Shown in pieces: positions 58,395-63,620 of a DNA stretch of 64,000 nt. The stretch comes from Algimonas ampicilliniresistens. GTDB taxonomy: Bacteria > Pseudomonadota > Alphaproteobacteria > Caulobacterales > Maricaulaceae. Numbering within the stretch: position 1 is the stretch's first letter; every line of letters starts with the position of its first letter. Location: the NCBI RefSeq assembly GCF_030159955.1, contig NZ_BSNK01000001.1, positions 620,001-684,000 on the forward strand, given 5' to 3'. The notes beneath the pieces were generated by a model that ran no database searches, was not told the DNA's origin, and saw only the letters and a program-made list of their open reading frames with translations. The position numbers and the translations under genes are program-made.

Positions 58395-58402
58395 AATATA
58401 AT
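58395..58402. repeat. Left target-site duplication (AATATAAT)
   Basis: Exact 8-bp copy of the sequence at 60881-60888. Removing the element and one copy restores a continuous region ending in the -10-like TATAAT upstream of the gene at 60942. Confidence 0.92.
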
Positions 58403-58429
58403 GGGGATTATATACTTGTGTGACCCAAC
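58403..58429 (+). repeat. Left terminal inverted repeat of the element
   Basis: 27 bp. Shares TTATATACTTGTGTGACCC and AAC with the reverse complement of the right end; the only differences are at positions 4 and 5. Confidence 0.92.
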
Positions 58430-58449
58430 TATTTGTGCCATAAGGTGGC

Positions 58450-59379
58450 ATGACCAAGGGTGCACAACAATTCGATAGTCTCTTTGACATGATGGAGGCG
58501 TTCCCTACGGAGCAACACGCCATTGACCATCTGCGCGCCCTGCGTTGGGGTTCGGACGACGAAGGCGCATATTGCCCGCATTGTGGTTCCACGCGCGTTA
58601 TGCACTTCTCTGACAACAAGACGCACAAGTGTTCCGATTGCCGGAAGCGCTTCTCTATCAAGGTCGGCACTATCTTCGAAGATAGCAAAATCAGCCTGCG
58701 CAAGTGGTTCATGGCGATCTGGTTGCTGACTTCGCACAAGAAAGGCATCGCCAGCACACAACTCGCCAAGGACATTAAGGTAACGCAGAAGACCGCGTGG
58801 TTCATGTTACACCGCCTACGCCATGCAACAGAGACTAAATCGTTCCAAGCGCCCCTGAAAGGCACTGTAGAGACAGACGAGACCTATGTTGGCGGTAAAT
58901 CTGCCAACCGTCACGCGCGTCAACGTGGCGTTGGTGTCCCTAAGCCGCCTAAATCAACCGTTGTCGGTATGATTGAACGCGGTGGCGAGGCCCGCGCCAT
59001 GCATATTCCTAACCCGTCACGTCGCAACTTGCACAATGCAGTTCGTGAAAACGTCGATACGTCCGCGCGCTTCATCACAGACGGTAACAACAGCTATCAG
59101 GGCCTTGGTGACACGTATGAGCATCACATTGTCCGTCACCATGCGGGTGAATATGTCTTGGATGGTGACGTTCACACCAACTCAATTGAGAGCATGTGGG
59201 CTATTCTAAAGCGCCAGATCATTGGTATTCATCACCACGTCTCACCAAAGCACCTGCAACAGTATGTCAATGAGGTCACATGGCGCTTCAATCGCCGTGA
59301 AGAAGGCGAAGGCGACCGCGTGAATAGCTTCCTATCCCGCACAGAAGGCCGTCTCACATACAAAGAGCTGACAGCATGA
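58450..59379 (+). CDS. IS1595-family transposase
   Basis: 309 residues, full length. An N-terminal zinc ribbon (YCPHCGSTRV, HKCSDCRKRFS) is followed by the ISXO2-like domain: TDETYVGGKS gives the first catalytic Asp, RFITDGNNSYQGL the second, and HTNSIESMWAILKRQ the third acidic or Asn position. No frameshift or stop is seen, so the protein may be active. Its ATGA end overlaps the next small frame. Confidence 0.94.
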   Translation: MTKGAQQFDSLFDMMEAFPTEQHAIDHLRALRWGSDDEGAYCPHCGSTRVMHFSDNKTHKCSDCRKRFSIKVGTIFEDSKISLRKWFMAIWLLTSHKKGIASTQLAKDIKVTQKTAWFMLHRLRHATETKSFQAPLKGTVETDETYVGGKSANRHARQRGVGVPKPPKSTVVGMIERGGEARAMHIPNPSRRNLHNAVRENVDTSARFITDGNNSYQGLGDTYEHHIVRHHAGEYVLDGDVHTNSIESMWAILKRQIIGIHHHVSPKHLQQYVNEVTWRFNRREEGEGDRVNSFLSRTEGRLTYKELTA

Positions 59380-59537
59380 CTGCCAAAGGGAATAAGCCGC
59401 CACTGGCGTTAGATATGCCCTTTGGGGAAGCGTTGGCGCGATTTGCGCAGACAGATCCCGATGAAATGGAAGGCGCTATCAGGATAAAGAAAGGGGGCCG
59501 TAAGCCCCCTCCCAAATCTAGTAAAAAACCGTCCTAG
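59376..59537 (+). CDS. 53-residue cargo protein, unknown
   Basis: The ATG overlaps the transposase stop (ATGA), so translation is probably coupled. The peptide starts MTAKGNKPPLALDMPFGEAL, continues with RFAQTDPDEMEGA and ends in a basic, Pro-rich tail (KKGGRKPPPKSSKKPS). The 3' end of the frame also forms a GGGGGC/GCCCCC hairpin (within 59494-59514). I know no function; similar short frames next to transposases of this kind may assist transposition. Confidence 0.6.
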   Translation: MTAKGNKPPLALDMPFGEALARFAQTDPDEMEGAIRIKKGGRKPPPKSSKKPS

Positions 59538-59540
59538 CAG

Positions 59541-59815
59541 TGTAGGCATCGGATGTGCGCTCGAACGTGCTCGATCCTGCCGAAGCGGCGTCGAGTGTAA
59601 GAGCGGACGTGGAAACAGAATCCTGAATAGGTCATATCGACCCTTTCATGCAAAGGTGCCCTTGCACAGATCGCTTCTGTATGTAAGATTCCGTTAGCGT
59701 CACGGGGTATCTTGCATACTCGCTAACCAGTGAGCAGCGCGGGCATACTACCGAACCAAGGGCCATCGAATCTCAACCCCTGCAAGGGTTTTGGTATCGG
59801 TGGTCCTTTTCGTTT
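59541..59815 (+). ncRNA. Candidate structured RNA region in the element, with a pseudoknot
   Basis: A 275-base stretch between two cargo frames with no coding frame of its own. On the plus strand: an 11-bp stem GTATGTAAGAT (59679-59689) with ATCTTGCATAC (59709-59719), an inner CCGT/ACGG stem (59691-59694/59702-59705), and a loop TAGCG (59695-59699) complementary to CGCTA (59721-59725) just after the stem, an H-type pseudoknot. A second 12-bp hairpin (59758-59769 with 59797-59808, two G-T pairs) encloses AACCC/GGGTT and is followed by TTTTCGTTTT, like a terminator. Further stems lie at 59649-59665. Whether it is transcribed is not known. Confidence 0.45.
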
Positions 59816-59817
59816 TG

Positions 59818-59851
59818 GGGTGCGCGCGTCGGTTCCGTGAACGCGCGACCC
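59818..59851. other. GC-rich inverted repeat between the structured stretch and the minus-strand cargo gene
   Basis: GGGT-(G)-CGCGCGT pairs with ACGCGCG-ACCC with one bulged G (11 bp). It lies 8 bases beyond the stop of the minus-strand gene and may end that transcript, although no T run follows on that strand. Confidence 0.5.
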
Positions 59852-59859
59852 TATTCTTA

Positions 59860-60282
59860 TCACATATCACCCTCCCTGTGATTGGACCCTGCAAGCACCC
59901 ATCGCTTGCCGTCTTTGTAGATATCCCCAGATTGCTTTAATCGGCTTAGCTGAGGAGAGAGGCTCGTTCGCGGGAAGCTTTTCCCGAAGCGTTCATTAAT
60001 CTTAGAAAGAATATCCAGCGCAATTAGACCGTCAGGGAAATCGGTGAGAACCAAACGAACCATCTGTTTGATAGACCGATAAGGTTCTGGGGCGGCCTCA
60101 CGCTTAGCCCGTTCAGGCTTCAAATTCTTGAACCCAGTAAGACTTTGCCCCCTTATAGCGGCTTCAGCCTTATCTAACCTGCTCATATCACCATAGAGTT
60201 CATCTAGCGTTGATTGCAAATCAAGTATCTTGATTGCGATTTCGGCGCGCTGCGCGGCAATATTTGCAAGGAGGTCATCCAC
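59860..60282 (-). CDS. Winged-helix-like cargo protein, unknown
   Basis: 140 residues from GTG 60282; an in-frame stop lies a short way upstream, so the start cannot be much earlier. No clear Shine-Dalgarno sequence is seen. Residues 1-45 look like a coiled coil (AAQRAEIAIKILDLQSTLDE), a Lys/Arg-rich linker follows, and the C-terminal 65 residues look like a winged helix: IKQMVRLVLTDFPDGLIALD, RTSLSPQLSRLKQSGDIYKD, KRWVLAG. It could be a regulator of the element's own genes. I do not recognise a named family. Its 5' region faces the tRNA promoter. Confidence 0.65.
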   Translation of the reverse strand: MDDLLANIAAQRAEIAIKILDLQSTLDELYGDMSRLDKAEAAIRGQSLTGFKNLKPERAKREAAPEPYRSIKQMVRLVLTDFPDGLIALDILSKINERFGKSFPRTSLSPQLSRLKQSGDIYKDGKRWVLAGSNHREGDM

Positions 60283-60347
60283 GTATTCATTGTAGTCGGC
60301 AGGACTTCATTTTACAAATAAAAGAGTCGCCAAAGACTACAAATTTA

Positions 60348-60356
60348 TGTGGATAA
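60348..60356 (-). promoter_or_regulatory. Perfect 9-bp DnaA-box match inside the element
   Basis: TGTGGATAA, the reverse complement of the consensus TTATCCACA, lies 66 bases upstream of the minus-strand cargo gene. One such match is expected by chance in about half of all windows of this size, so binding is unproven. Confidence 0.25.
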
Positions 60357-60373
60357 TCGTGTATTTCTCTAAG

Positions 60374-60445
60374 GAGTCCAGAACAAAATAGGAACATTGA
60401 CTACATCCGTTCCACTCTGTTCCGCCAAGACTTTTTTCTGGACTC
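60374..60445. other. Inverted repeat spanning the region upstream of the cargo tRNA
   Basis: GAGTCCAGA (60374-60382) and TCTGGACTC (60437-60445) are perfect 9-bp arms; the loop holds a GGAAC/GTTCC pair. The right arm contains the -35 hexamer proposed for the tRNA promoter, so the repeat could be an operator or a cruciform-forming element. No protein is known to bind it. Confidence 0.5.
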
Positions 60446-60467
60446 AGGTCTATGGGGTCCCTATATA
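60439..60467 (+). promoter_or_regulatory. Promoter of the cargo tRNA
   Basis: TGGACT (60439-60444, 4/6 of the -35 consensus), a 17-bp spacer, and TATATA (60462-60467). The expected transcription start is about 20 bases before the tRNA, a normal distance for a tRNA gene. Confidence 0.55.
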
Positions 60468-60492
60468 GGAGGTGACTGCACGCAACGGTCAC

Positions 60493-60582
60493 GGTGCTGT
60501 GTCAGAGCGGTTTAATGTGCCGGATTCCAAATCCGGTGGGGTGTTGTTGCCCCCGTGGGTTCGAATCCCACCAGCACCTCCA
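60493..60582 (+). tRNA. Class II, serine-type tRNA with CCA (tryptophan) anticodon
   Basis: Cloverleaf: acceptor GGTGCTG/CAGCACC (7 bp), anticodon stem CCGGA/TCCGG (5 bp) with loop TTCCAAA (anticodon CCA at 60527-60529, T33 and A37 present), a long variable arm of 18 nt (GGGG/CCCC stem), T stem GTGGG/CCCAC and loop TTCGAAT (all canonical), discriminator T, encoded CCA. The D arm TCAGAGCGGTTTAATG has the AG..GG..AA loop of tRNA-Ser, but one of three D-stem pairs is a T-T mismatch. SerRS recognises the long arm and not the anticodon, so serine charging is likely. The discriminator U73 is unusual for Ser (G73). Confidence 0.75.
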
Positions 60583-60795
60583 CTAAAATGGAGGTCGTTC
60601 TGTAGTCATCCGGGCGGAGAACAACCTCCGCCCCAACTTTCCTGCATGAATCTTAACTTGATATTTCTGTATTCTGGGCATAAATCAAAAATCAAGCGAT
60701 CTACTACAACAACCAGTCCTTGGGCTGAGTAGAGAGCCGCAGGGCCTCGCCCTGATCTAGGAGAGAGACCTAGGTGGAGGTGCATACACCAAATT
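60583..60795 (+). ncRNA. Structured trailer of the cargo tRNA transcript
   Basis: No protein frame with a natural start is visible. Just after the tRNA, TGGAGGT (60588-60594) can pair with ACCTCCA at the tRNA 3' end. GGGCGGAG/CTCCGCCC forms an 8-bp hairpin at 60612-60633. Later, CAGGG/CCCTG and CTAGG/CCTAG hairpins lie close together before a purine-rich stretch. The unit ends at the terminator at 60796. It may be a processed trailer or a functional RNA; nothing in the sequence decides. Confidence 0.35.
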
Positions 60796-60830
60796 AAACC
60801 CTAGTCTTCGGACTAGGGTTTTCTTGTTTT
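60796..60830 (+). terminator. Strong intrinsic terminator with TTCG tetraloop
   Basis: AAACCCTAGTC and GACTAGGGTTT form an 11-bp perfect stem closed by TTCG and followed by TTCTTGTTTT. It ends the tRNA transcription unit inside the element, 24 bases before the right inverted repeat. Confidence 0.92.
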
Positions 60831-60853
60831 ATATACGTCTGATTGCTGAAAAG

Positions 60854-60880
60854 GTTGGGTCACACAAGTATATAAGTCCC
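60854..60880 (-). repeat. Right terminal inverted repeat of the element
   Basis: 27 bp, 25/27 identical to the left end in inverted orientation. Confidence 0.92.
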
Positions 60881-60888
60881 AATATAAT
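60859..60888 (+). promoter_or_regulatory. Possible hybrid promoter formed by the insertion
   Basis: GTCACA (60859-60864, in the right inverted repeat; 4/6 of the -35 consensus) lies 18 bp before a perfect TATAAT (60883-60888), which is part of the duplicated target. It points to the gene starting at 60942, 53 bases on. Confidence 0.4.
60881..60888. repeat. Right target-site duplication (AATATAAT)
   Basis: Exact 8-bp copy of 58395-58402. Confidence 0.92.
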
Positions 60889-60941: not shown

Positions 60942-61271
60942 ATGTCTCGCCGCAAAACAACCGATCCGATTGATCCCGCCCGCGCCAAGCTGGCTGTCGC
61001 TGCTGCCGCGCTTGAGTTTGGCGTACCCGATTTAGACTTAGGGCGTCCTGACCATCGTGCCCCCTTGATCGACTTCGCCCGCCAAGTCGCCATGTATCTG
61101 TCAGCCTGCATTTTTGGCATGACCATGACCCGTATTGGTGAGCTGTTTGGTCGTGACCGCTCCACCGTCAGCCATGCACTCAGAGTCATTGAGGACGGTC
61201 GCACGGATCCAGTTTTCGATGCAAAGATTGAACGGCTGGAAAGCTGGCTCGGTGCGGCGCCCATTCGATGA
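60942..61271 (+). CDS. DnaA domain IV-like helix-turn-helix protein
   Basis: 109 residues. The region ARQVAMYLSACIFGMTMTRI and GELFGRDRSTVSHALRVIED matches the DNA-binding domain IV of DnaA (helix-turn-helix plus signature, with the R and TxxH positions), without its AAA+ domain. The family is common in Alphaproteobacteria next to DUF6456 genes and is probably a regulator. ATG 60942 follows GAAGGAGG. It overlaps the next gene by 4 bases. The transposon is inserted in its promoter region. Confidence 0.85.
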   Translation: MSRRKTTDPIDPARAKLAVAAAALEFGVPDLDLGRPDHRAPLIDFARQVAMYLSACIFGMTMTRIGELFGRDRSTVSHALRVIEDGRTDPVFDAKIERLESWLGAAPIR

Positions 61272-62032
61272 ACGCACAGTCAGACCGTCTAAGGACGGAG
61301 CAATTATTGCGGAGCCTGCTACGCAGTGACGCTTTGATCCAACGTCAATCTATCCCCGGTGATTGGCCTGCTTTCATCCGCGGAGACCACCGAAAACGAC
61401 CTCTGTTCTGGGTGAATAGTGCAGATGTGGACGCGTTACTAAGCGATAAGGTGCTTGCCAATACCCCCAAAGGCGTCGGACTATCTGGGACCACCCGCCG
61501 CAGACTTTTACACGGTGCATCTGACCGGGAGATTGAAACCCGTACCGAATTTGTGCCGTCAGGTGTCGAACGGCCCGTTCGCCGGAACGTCCGTGGCACC
61601 GTCCTGCAGCGCCTGTCGCATCGGCGCGGACAGGACCGAGAACGACTCCTCAATGAGGCTCAGGTGACAGCGGCGCATCGCTATACTCAAGACCTCCTTA
61701 AGTCCGGCGAAGGTCATGTCGGAACGACTGACCCGTCTGCGCCGAAAGTTGACGGCACACGGCGGCATGATGCGGCTGAACGCGCCGCACTCACTCGCAT
61801 AGATGCCAATCGCTCACTTCAGTCGGCGCGTGACGCGCTCGGCCCGGATCTGTCTCGGTTGCTGAATGCAGTCTGCGGCGCAAATGAACGTTTAGAGGCC
61901 ATTGAACGGGCAGAGAATTGGTCGCGCGGGACCGGGCTCGCCATCCTACGTATGGCGCTAGATCGACTGACCCTCCATTACGGCACGGTCCCGGGCCAGT
62001 CCCATCCCCGATCAGATCGGGTCATTGGGTAG
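61268..62032 (+). CDS. DUF6456 protein
   Basis: 254 residues. The C-terminal half is rich in features seen in DUF6456 proteins: LLNEAQVTAAHRYTQDLLKS, DAAERAALTRIDANRSLQSA, LGPDLSRLLNAVCGANERLE and LRMALDRLTLHYG. The function is unknown, but this pair with the DnaA-like protein is conserved and lies next to GTA-like genes here. ATGA overlap with the preceding gene. Confidence 0.82.
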   Translation: MNAQSDRLRTEQLLRSLLRSDALIQRQSIPGDWPAFIRGDHRKRPLFWVNSADVDALLSDKVLANTPKGVGLSGTTRRRLLHGASDREIETRTEFVPSGVERPVRRNVRGTVLQRLSHRRGQDRERLLNEAQVTAAHRYTQDLLKSGEGHVGTTDPSAPKVDGTRRHDAAERAALTRIDANRSLQSARDALGPDLSRLLNAVCGANERLEAIERAENWSRGTGLAILRMALDRLTLHYGTVPGQSHPRSDRVIG

Positions 62033-62071
62033 ACACATCCTCGTCTGTCAGGGCCGACGCATAGTTGGTCC

Positions 62072-62368
62072 ATGACCGATTTAACCACGCCCGATCCGCA
62101 CCGCGCCGCAGCCCTGATTGCTCAGTTACAAGATAGGCTATTGGCGTTGGGCCAGGATGATGGGTCGCTCCCGACCGCGGAAATCGAAAAAACTGCCAAG
62201 GCGATCAACGTCCTAATCGACAGTCTTGAGAAGGCCGACCAATTCCTAGCCGAATGCGGTGAAACGGCTCGGCTTGGGGATCGGTTGACAGGGCCGTCGC
62301 GGCAGACATTGCTACGCAAAATCAAGCGCATGGTTGAAAATGGCGTGCTGGACGAACTCGATGAGTAG
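62072..62368 (+). CDS. Candidate small terminase subunit of a gene transfer agent
   Basis: 98 residues, helical: AALIAQLQDRLLALGQDDGS, EKTAKAINVLIDSLEKADQF and an acidic end LDELDE. It has the right size and the right place (directly before the large terminase, 8-base overlap) for the GTA g1/TerS protein, but I cannot confirm family membership from sequence. It may bind DNA or the large subunit. Confidence 0.5.
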   Translation: MTDLTTPDPHRAAALIAQLQDRLLALGQDDGSLPTAEIEKTAKAINVLIDSLEKADQFLAECGETARLGDRLTGPSRQTLLRKIKRMVENGVLDELDE

Positions 62369-63620
62369 TCACGCAAAGCTCGGTTTAGGTCCAGTCGAAA
62401 TTGATAATGTGCTGCGCGGCTGGAAGGCTCAGGCCCGATCTGATCAGATCGCGCCGGATGATCCTAACTGGTCGATCTGGATGGTGCTGGGTGGCCGCGG
62501 ATCGGGCAAAACCCGTGCGGGCGCGGAGTGGGTGTTGGAGCAGGTCAGGCGCGGCGCCGTTCGGATCGCGCTCGTAGCGCCGACCTTACACGATGCGCGT
62601 GAAGTCATGCTCGGCGGGGATAGTGGGCTGCTCAATGCTGACTTCAGAAATGAACGCCCCCGTTATGAGCCGACCCGGCGACGTGTTTTGTTTCCGAATG
62701 GGGCGATTGGCTATCTCTTTTCCGCGTATGACCCCGACAGTCTGCGCGGTCCGCAGTTTGATTGCGCGTGGGGCGATGAATTCTGCGCGTGGGCGGACCC
62801 CGATGCAGTGCTGTCAAACCTGCGTCTGGGACTAAGATTGGGGACGAGGCCCAGACTGTGTCTGACCAGCACTCCGCGTCCGATTGCTGCGCTCGACAGA
62901 TTGCTAGCTGATCCAGCGACGCGGTTGAGCAAAGCGCGGACCCACGACAATGCGGACAATCTCGCGCCCGGTTTCATTGCGGCGATGGAGGCGACCTATG
63001 GCGGGTCAAGCTTGGGCCGACAGGAATTAGACGGTGAGATTGTACGCGATCATCCCGGCGCGATTTTTCAACGCGCCGATATCGACACAGCGCGGGTGAC
63101 AGACGCTCCACTCCTGGACCGGATTATCATCGCACTTGATCCCCCCGCGACATCTGGCCGTAATGCGGACGCATGCGGCATCATTGTGGTCGGTCGTTGC
63201 GGAGAGGGGCGAAAGGCAGAAGGCTACGTTCTCTATGACGGTAGCTTATCCCGCGCCCGCCCGGAGGTCTGGGCCGCGCGAACCGTCGATCTTTTTCACG
63301 CTTATGACGCGGACTGTATATTGGCAGAAACCAATCAGGGAGGTGAGATGGTTGAGGCCGTCATTCACCAAATTGACCCAGATGTGCCAGTTCAGCGTCG
63401 TCATGCCCGTCGGTCGAAATCCACCCGCGCTATGCCTGTCGGCCTGCTTTACGCGCGTGGGCGGGTACATCATGTCGGGCGGTTTGATGCGCTCGAAGAT
63501 GAGCTCTGCGCTTTTGGCGGGCCGCATCAAAATGGAAGTCCTGATCGGATGGATGCGTTGGTCTGGGCCGTGGCTGACTTGCTTCTGAGGCAATCCCAGC
63601 CGAATTTGCGATTTCTTTAA
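62361..63620 (+). CDS. Gene-transfer-agent/phage large terminase subunit
   Basis: 419 residues. The ATPase Walker A is VLGGRGSGKTRAGAEWVLEQ, the Walker B is in DCAWGDEFCAWADPD, and a nuclease-type Asp is in IIIALDPPATSGRNADA, with a second in SPDRMDALVWAVADLL. This is the alphaproteobacterial GTA terminase type (RcGTA g2). It cuts and packages DNA. In true GTA clusters a portal gene follows; here the next gene is different. ATG 62361 is chosen as it follows the small-terminase stop. Confidence 0.88.
   Translation: MSSHAKLGLGPVEIDNVLRGWKAQARSDQIAPDDPNWSIWMVLGGRGSGKTRAGAEWVLEQVRRGAVRIALVAPTLHDAREVMLGGDSGLLNADFRNERPRYEPTRRRVLFPNGAIGYLFSAYDPDSLRGPQFDCAWGDEFCAWADPDAVLSNLRLGLRLGTRPRLCLTSTPRPIAALDRLLADPATRLSKARTHDNADNLAPGFIAAMEATYGGSSLGRQELDGEIVRDHPGAIFQRADIDTARVTDAPLLDRIIIALDPPATSGRNADACGIIVVGRCGEGRKAEGYVLYDGSLSRARPEVWAARTVDLFHAYDADCILAETNQGGEMVEAVIHQIDPDVPVQRRHARRSKSTRAMPVGLLYARGRVHHVGRFDALEDELCAFGGPHQNGSPDRMDALVWAVADLLLRQSQPNLRFL

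Follow-up and report, generated by a model that had tools for sequence, protein, structure and literature searches.

Within the 64,000-nucleotide stretch of DNA analysed here (the window), a short transposable element encloses a tRNA gene whose body resembles that of a serine tRNA and whose anticodon, CCA, reads the tryptophan codon UGG. The locus raises the question of whether this is a genuine tRNA gene of the element, from which tRNA it derives, and what it might do in the cell that carries it.

The tRNA gene and its carrier

The features of the element and its target site, in order of position, are as follows.

58395..58402, no strand: left 8-bp target duplication AATATAAT, identical to 60881-60888; single copy within AGGAATATAATCC in sister genomes
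58403..60880, forward: IS1595-family element, 2478 bp, with a pair of terminal inverted repeats (TIRs) and an exact 8-bp duplication; the single full copy in the genome
58403..58429, forward: left TIR GGGGATTATATACTTGTGTGACCCAAC, from inverted-repeat analysis
58450..59379, forward: IS1595 transposase, 309 aa (PF12762, 138 bits; PF12760 zinc ribbon, 41.8 bits)
59376..59537, forward: 53-aa junction ORF overlapping the transposase stop, from the ORF list; a 53-aa counterpart is present in L262
59860..60282, reverse: 140-aa passenger ORF, from the ORF list
60462..60467, forward: TATATA, a putative -10 element lying 31 nt before the tRNA
60493..60582, forward: tRNA gene with serine-type body, anticodon CCA and encoded CCA tail (ARAGORN, Rfam, reading by arms)
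60527..60529, forward: anticodon CCA, reading UGG (ARAGORN, Rfam)
60537..60554, forward: 18-nt variable region TGGGGTGTTGTTGCCCCC, from reading by arms
60579, forward: discriminator U73, from reading by arms
60612..60633, forward: 8-bp G+C-rich hairpin downstream of the tRNA, from fold analysis
60796..60821, no strand: 11-bp terminator-like hairpin, called for both strands by terminator and hairpin calls
60854..60880, reverse: right TIR, from inverted-repeat analysis
60881..60888, no strand: right target duplication AATATAAT, identical to the left copy

The sole tRNA call made by ARAGORN in the window was a tRNA-Trp(cca) at 60493-60582, and Rfam RF00005 matched 60493-60579 with 54.1 bits (gathering score 29, E 1.6e-9), confirming the complete tRNA with a CCA anticodon that the initial annotation had proposed. 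When the gene was read by arms, the acceptor stem (GGTGCTG/CAGCACC, 7 pairs), the stem of the anticodon arm (CCGGA-TTCCAAA-TCCGG, 5 pairs) and the T stem (GTGGG/CCCAC, 5 pairs) consisted entirely of Watson-Crick pairs, and the 3' end was formed by U73 followed by an encoded CCA. In the D region, TGTCAGAGCGGTTTAATGTG, the D stem was broken by a U10.U25 mismatch, the sole broken pair of the tRNA; the earlier descriptions of a cloverleaf canonical save for one D-stem pair, and of a long variable arm, both agree with this reading. Folded as single-stranded RNA, the tRNA gave a z of -3.2, with 1 of 200 dinucleotide shuffles equally stable, and the minimum-energy fold retained the acceptor, anticodon and T stems and lost the D stem of the cloverleaf. 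A scan with the sigma-70 consensus found no sigma-70-like promoter just upstream of the tRNA and did not report the TATATA at 60462; hexamers of the same quality occur within 50 nt of 18 of 39 host tRNA genes.

Elements of the IS1595 family are recognised by TIRs that begin with GG and by an 8-bp target duplication. Both were found here: inverted repeats of 53 nt (81%) place the TIRs between a GGGG start at 58403 and a CCC end at 60880, and the intact TIRs and duplication surround the tRNA inside a 1.69-Mb contig. Furthermore, the transposase matched both PF12762 (ISXO2-like DDE) and PF12760 above cut-off. A second IS1595 transposase of the genome, 45% identical, lies on another contig. The unoccupied motif AGGAATATAATCC was intact in 14 of 16 sister-genus loci of the homologous neighbour gene (L378-L393); of the remaining two, L388 has the motif with one mismatch and L378 is occupied by another IS1595-type transposase. 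The empty motif in the sister genomes indicates that the 2478-bp unit, tRNA included, inserted at this site, and together with the TIRs, the exact duplication, the DDE domain and the zinc ribbon it bears out the assignment of the carrier to the IS1595 family.

The motif AGGAATATAATCC, which is conserved, AT-rich and located upstream of a DnaA_C-like gene, is a repeated IS1595 target: elements are present there in the window and in genome G106 (L262), and in G044 a different transposase, judged by eye to be of IS1595 type, is adjacent to it (L378, 421-1380). Beside the element, 60942-63620 encodes a DnaA_C-like protein, a DUF6456 protein and a terminase large subunit, a cluster that we take to resemble a gene-transfer-agent or prophage head cluster.

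Body, anticodon and discriminator

The window tRNA was compared with the 40 distinct host tRNA genes recovered, a complement that includes an ordinary tRNATrp and four tRNASer genes. Plain alignment scores were highest for tRNASer(CGA) and tRNASer(TGA) (28.0 and 27.5), with tRNATyr close behind (26.0), and lower for tRNASer(GGA), tRNATrp and the best tRNALeu (19.5, 17.5 and 10.5, respectively); the nearest host tRNASer shares 63 or 64 of about 95 aligned columns. The variable region of 18 nt equals in length those of the CGA and TGA isoacceptors, and that of the host tRNATyr is shorter (13 nt by eye). A published account places serine identity chiefly in the variable arm and not in the anticodon, and gives G1-C72 and G2-C71 as conserved in most bacterial tRNASer (PMC9976931); the window tRNA has both pairs and the long arm, with CCA in place of a serine anticodon. 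Bacterial tryptophan identity is attributed in the same source to G73, the anticodon and acceptor pairs (PMC9976931). The window tRNA has the CCA anticodon but neither the G73 nor the short variable region that the host tRNATrp displays, and it carries G1-C72 rather than A1-U72. Its acceptor and T stems differ from those of each of 8 compared tRNASer, yet are fully paired. By these comparisons the body of the window tRNA is closest to tRNASer, with tRNATyr nearly level by plain alignment; the combination of alignment scores, G1-C72/G2-C71, an 18-nt variable region and CCA agrees with the serine-type body and tryptophan anticodon first described.

The anticodon arm of the host tRNASer(CGA), CCGGA-TTCGAAA-TCCGG, differs from that of the window tRNA only at G35, which is C in the latter, a change that turns a UCG reader into a UGG reader. 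The origin of the window tRNA would be most simply explained as a tRNASer(CGA) with this one anticodon change, G35C. The host tRNATrp anticodon arm differs from that of the window by one base pair, which makes an arm swap a second possible origin. The tRNASer(CGA) genes of the host and of the same genus (L147, L148) share with the window tRNA the anticodon arm save one base, the 18-nt variable region, G1 and G2-C71, and the two genus relatives also share U73; the window tRNA differs from them in its anticodon (CCA versus CGA), in acceptor and variable-stem sequence, in U10.U25 and in being borne on a transposon.

The initial annotation had treated U73 as an abnormal discriminator that, with the D-stem mismatch, might make the tRNA a poor substrate for SerRS. 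Among tRNASer genes from loci of family relatives, 20 of 27 have U73, and since these loci were fetched by similarity to the window tRNA, the proportion is biased, but the existence of U73 is not. By isoacceptor, U73 was present in 18 of 23 GGA, both CGA and neither of two TGA genes, both CGA genes (L147, L148) coming from the same genus as the host. U73 is thus not abnormal in this bacterial family, and its use by tRNASer of relatives, including both same-genus CGA isoacceptors, weakens the idea of a poor substrate. However, all four host tRNASer genes have G73, and G73 is reported to be a tRNASer determinant in E. coli in vivo (PMC9976931), so the host SerRS may prefer G73.

Distribution of the tRNA and cargo of related elements

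Genomes were searched with a pattern describing a tRNA that has a long variable arm and the loop TTCCAAA; the pattern requires exact conserved bases, so diverged cases would escape it. Among 399 genomes of the order it matched in 4, and among 398 of the phylum in 2, the samples having genomes in common; as judged by ARAGORN, three of the former matches and one of the latter were not tRNAs, and the remaining match in each sample was the window's own. A search of 138 family genomes gave no close homologue of the window tRNA: the best long matches, one of 76% over 71 nt and one of 71% over 90 nt, were both to tRNASer, and in many genomes the match was confined to 29-30 nt in the T arm (90%). Nine phage records matched the window tRNA, seven at annotated tRNA-Ser genes and two, unannotated, over 35 nt, as did eight plasmid-collection records, with no feature annotated beneath the best match. 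By the pattern search of 399 order and 398 phylum genomes, the window tRNA is an orphan.

The same pattern matched 22 stretches in viral contigs, with ARAGORN long-variable-arm tRNAs at four. These serine-like long-arm tRNAs of viral-collection contigs have the tryptophan anticodon CCA in two cases (L130, 8716-8797; L143, 11921-12004) and the glycine anticodon UCC in two others (L139, 12332-12418; L140, 2320-2404).

An initial count covered 88 loci at which an element was delineated, and in 85 of them the element exceeded 1.5 kb; when the passenger DNA of 23 relatives was inspected, nearly all had extra ORFs past the transposase. Eight of nine scanned passenger proteins had a Pfam match, and some also matched PADLOC models; the families were Bro-N (twice, one below cut-off), IrrE-like peptidase (twice), RhuM, D12 and N6/N4 DNA methylases, and SocA-like. 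These protein-carrying elements (L044-L096, L262) resemble that of the window in transposase, TIRs, duplication, a slot mostly downstream of the transposase and, by eye, often a similar junction peptide; they carry proteins, whereas the window element carries the tRNA and the 140-aa ORF. The junction peptide (by eye LDMxFxEALxRF..TDPKE) occurs in L044-L096, which are mostly alphaproteobacterial, and in some of them is part of a fusion with Bro-N, RhuM, a methylase or another protein. The 140-aa ORF matched no Pfam family at E 0.01 and none above cut-off, no PHROGs or PADLOC family at the limits used, and no relative in viral contigs; a suspected homology to the coiled-coil or winged-helix-like passengers (labelled by eye) of L118, L073 and L059 was unsupported.

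The nearest element, L262, has a transposase 70% identical to that of the window and occupies the same motif with the same duplication. The two have in common their first 1.2 kb, with the transposase and the junction ORF, as well as the right end, and differ in the passenger in between, which indicates that the passenger slot is exchanged. The L262 element shows no tRNA, and a tRNA remnant was likewise rejected there, the local score of 10 lying close to the shuffle mean of 9.1 and being reached by 62 of 200 shuffles. At gathering scores, Rfam reported two tRNAs and one SRP RNA in 18 loci from close relatives. Neither tRNA was accepted as a passenger: that of L063 lies outside its element, and that of L049 precedes by about 1.9 kb a transposase around which no element was delineated.

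Elements were then delineated by the joint presence of TIRs and an 8-bp target duplication. From 248 loci with 260 transposase hits, 121 hits without TIR and duplication and 42 repeats were dropped, leaving 97 distinct elements, five of which contain a tRNA; because the window was the starting point, the unbiased count is four of the 96 others. The four are L115 (596-670, anticodon ACU, a Chlorobiota MAG), L118 (2184-2255, anticodon CCU with G33, a Bacteroidetes MAG), L222 (2903-2979, anticodon CGC with two anticodon-stem mismatches) and L257 (5320-5394, anticodon GUU, ordinary in appearance), the last two from viral-collection contigs, and all four scored above the Rfam gathering score (L257 via L269, on the same contig). 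As in the window, each tRNA is enclosed by the TIRs of an element of IS1595 type that has an 8-bp duplication; unlike the window tRNA, all have a short variable arm, and the transposases are 42-45% identical to that of the window. ARAGORN found zero tRNAs in ten dinucleotide shuffles of the 96 elements (2.5 Mb). Among 1160 shuffled loci, 5 showed TIRs plus duplication by chance, all of them with nine mismatches; two of the 97 kept elements have nine mismatches and may be chance, and the weakest of the five tRNA carriers, L118, has six. Taken together, these data are evidence that IS1595 elements acquired tRNA genes more than once, and the cargo shows that their passenger slot accepts RNA genes besides protein genes.

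The tRNA density was 5 in 163 kb inside elements versus 20 in 536 kb of flanks; an enrichment inside elements was not seen, and no preference for tRNAs is claimed. The tRNA of L230, 189 nt past a transposase, was dropped for lack of TIR and duplication; the tRNAs of L082, L085, L103, L180 and L199 lay outside any delineated element; and for a second tRNA-like stretch suspected by eye after the L115 tRNA, Rfam gave no match. By alignment, a weak classifier of tRNA bodies, the tRNAs of L115 and, weakly, L118 came nearest to Arg tRNAs from the genomes that carry them; in a comparison with three foreign genomes only, the tRNA of L222 matched an Arg and a Thr tRNA equally well and that of L257 was nearest an Asp tRNA. 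With its ACU anticodon, the L115 tRNA would be an Arg-like body with an anticodon for a serine codon.

The initial annotation knew of no such tRNA as IS1595 cargo and would count its absence from other elements, with decayed copies elsewhere, against its own reading. Four more tRNA-bearing elements now accompany it, with tRNAs that differ from that of the window, and the same cloverleaf recurred in none. Among the titles and abstract openings listed in a literature search that covered few subscription journals, none described a tRNA gene as a passenger of IS1595 or of a transposon.

Possible roles of the tRNA

The window tRNA is a real, orphan, transposon-borne tRNA with a mismatch between body and anticodon, for which serine at UGG is the leading prediction. 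We favour, at a probability of about 0.45, a mobile serine-accepting tRNA that would decode UGG, derived from a tRNASer, seated in the IS1595 passenger slot and moved with the element as a unit. The tRNA would be transcribed at some level, possibly from the TATATA 31 nt upstream; SerRS, ignoring the anticodon, would charge it with serine; and the charged tRNA, competing with the host tRNATrp, would insert serine at UGG, producing a low-level misreading of tryptophan as serine that would travel with the element. Since frequent misreading of UGG as serine would come at a cost, weak expression or charging is to be expected. In E. coli, tRNAs of serine type that bear foreign anticodons are reported to insert serine at non-serine codons (PMC7609411). 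Several features speak against serine at UGG, namely U10.U25, the lack of a sigma-70 site, the near-equal tRNATyr score and the host G73.

It is somewhat unlikely, and yet conceivable, that the gene makes a regulatory or decoy tRNA-like RNA outside translation. The precedent is tRNAOther of Bacillus cereus, a second tRNA-like gene with a tryptophan anticodon that flanks a pathogenicity island (foreign DNA) and is described as poorly aminoacylated, absent from polysomes and regulatory (PMC3399842); this Bacillus gene, reported to act outside translation, is likened to the window tRNA by description only. The G+C-rich hairpin downstream and the oddness of three of the four other element-borne tRNAs (ACU on an Arg-like body in L115, G33 in L118, the mismatches in L222) would fit such a role, but pairs intact save for U10.U25 and an encoded CCA tail are needless for an RNA that does not translate. 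We also think it unlikely that a captured tRNASer gene is merely drifting as an idle passenger, functionless for element and host. Its single copy in the genome, the lack of homologues in the family genomes and in the order and phylum pattern searches, the D-stem mismatch, the exchanged slot of L262 and a tRNA density no higher than in the flanks would all suit it; however, pairing is complete in the acceptor, anticodon, variable and T stems despite the distance from the nearest host tRNASer, and drift should break more pairs, an argument whose force depends on the donor and on the time available for drift.

An extra tRNATrp, charged by TrpRS through its CCA anticodon, is improbable. The anticodon and, in Bacillus subtilis, G2-C71 and G4-C69 are listed among bacterial tryptophan determinants (PMC9976931), but against this reading stand G1-C72, U73 and a long variable arm where G73, A1-U72 and, as in the host tRNATrp, a short variable region would be expected. 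A chance fold or a misassembly, to which the occurrence of the tRNA in just one genome might point, is very improbable in view of the Rfam E value, the shuffled elements free of tRNA calls, and the intact ends around the tRNA in a long contig.

To return to the serine-accepting tRNA, a further and doubtful extension of it is that IS1595 elements repeatedly gain tRNAs in which body and anticodon have ceased to match. The elements would disperse these tRNAs as mobile variants of decoding, and selection would favour them as passengers in the way it favours the defence-type genes of sister elements; the tRNAs would either recode each new host's proteome at a low level or act against enzymes that attack or use tRNA. 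The candidate cases are a Ser body reading UGG (window), an Arg-like body with ACU (Chlorobiota) and an Arg- or Thr-like body with CGC (viral-collection contig).

Transfer RNAs occur on larger mobile elements, and both phage-borne tRNAs and misreading serine tRNAs with foreign anticodons are already known; an insertion element of 2.5 kb whose tRNA cargo is one anticodon-switched gene would make a very small mobile unit capable of altering decoding, and the window tRNA permits a direct test of serine at UGG. Allo-tRNAs, with which the initial annotation drew a parallel, are described as having a 12-bp acceptor branch arranged as 8/4 or 9/3, and one allo-tRNA pseudogene as overlapping a transposon-related ORF, from which a link to transposable elements was suggested (PMC7609411). 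The parallel holds for the serine-type sequence features and the foreign anticodon, but not for the structure: the acceptor branch of the window tRNA is 7/5, and by structure it is not an allo-tRNA.

The host tRNASer(CGA) (G000 C1:544601-544687, L032) has G1.U72, no encoded CCA and, by eye, an inverted repeat just upstream, odd features which suggest that the chromosomal UCG reader may itself be unusual.
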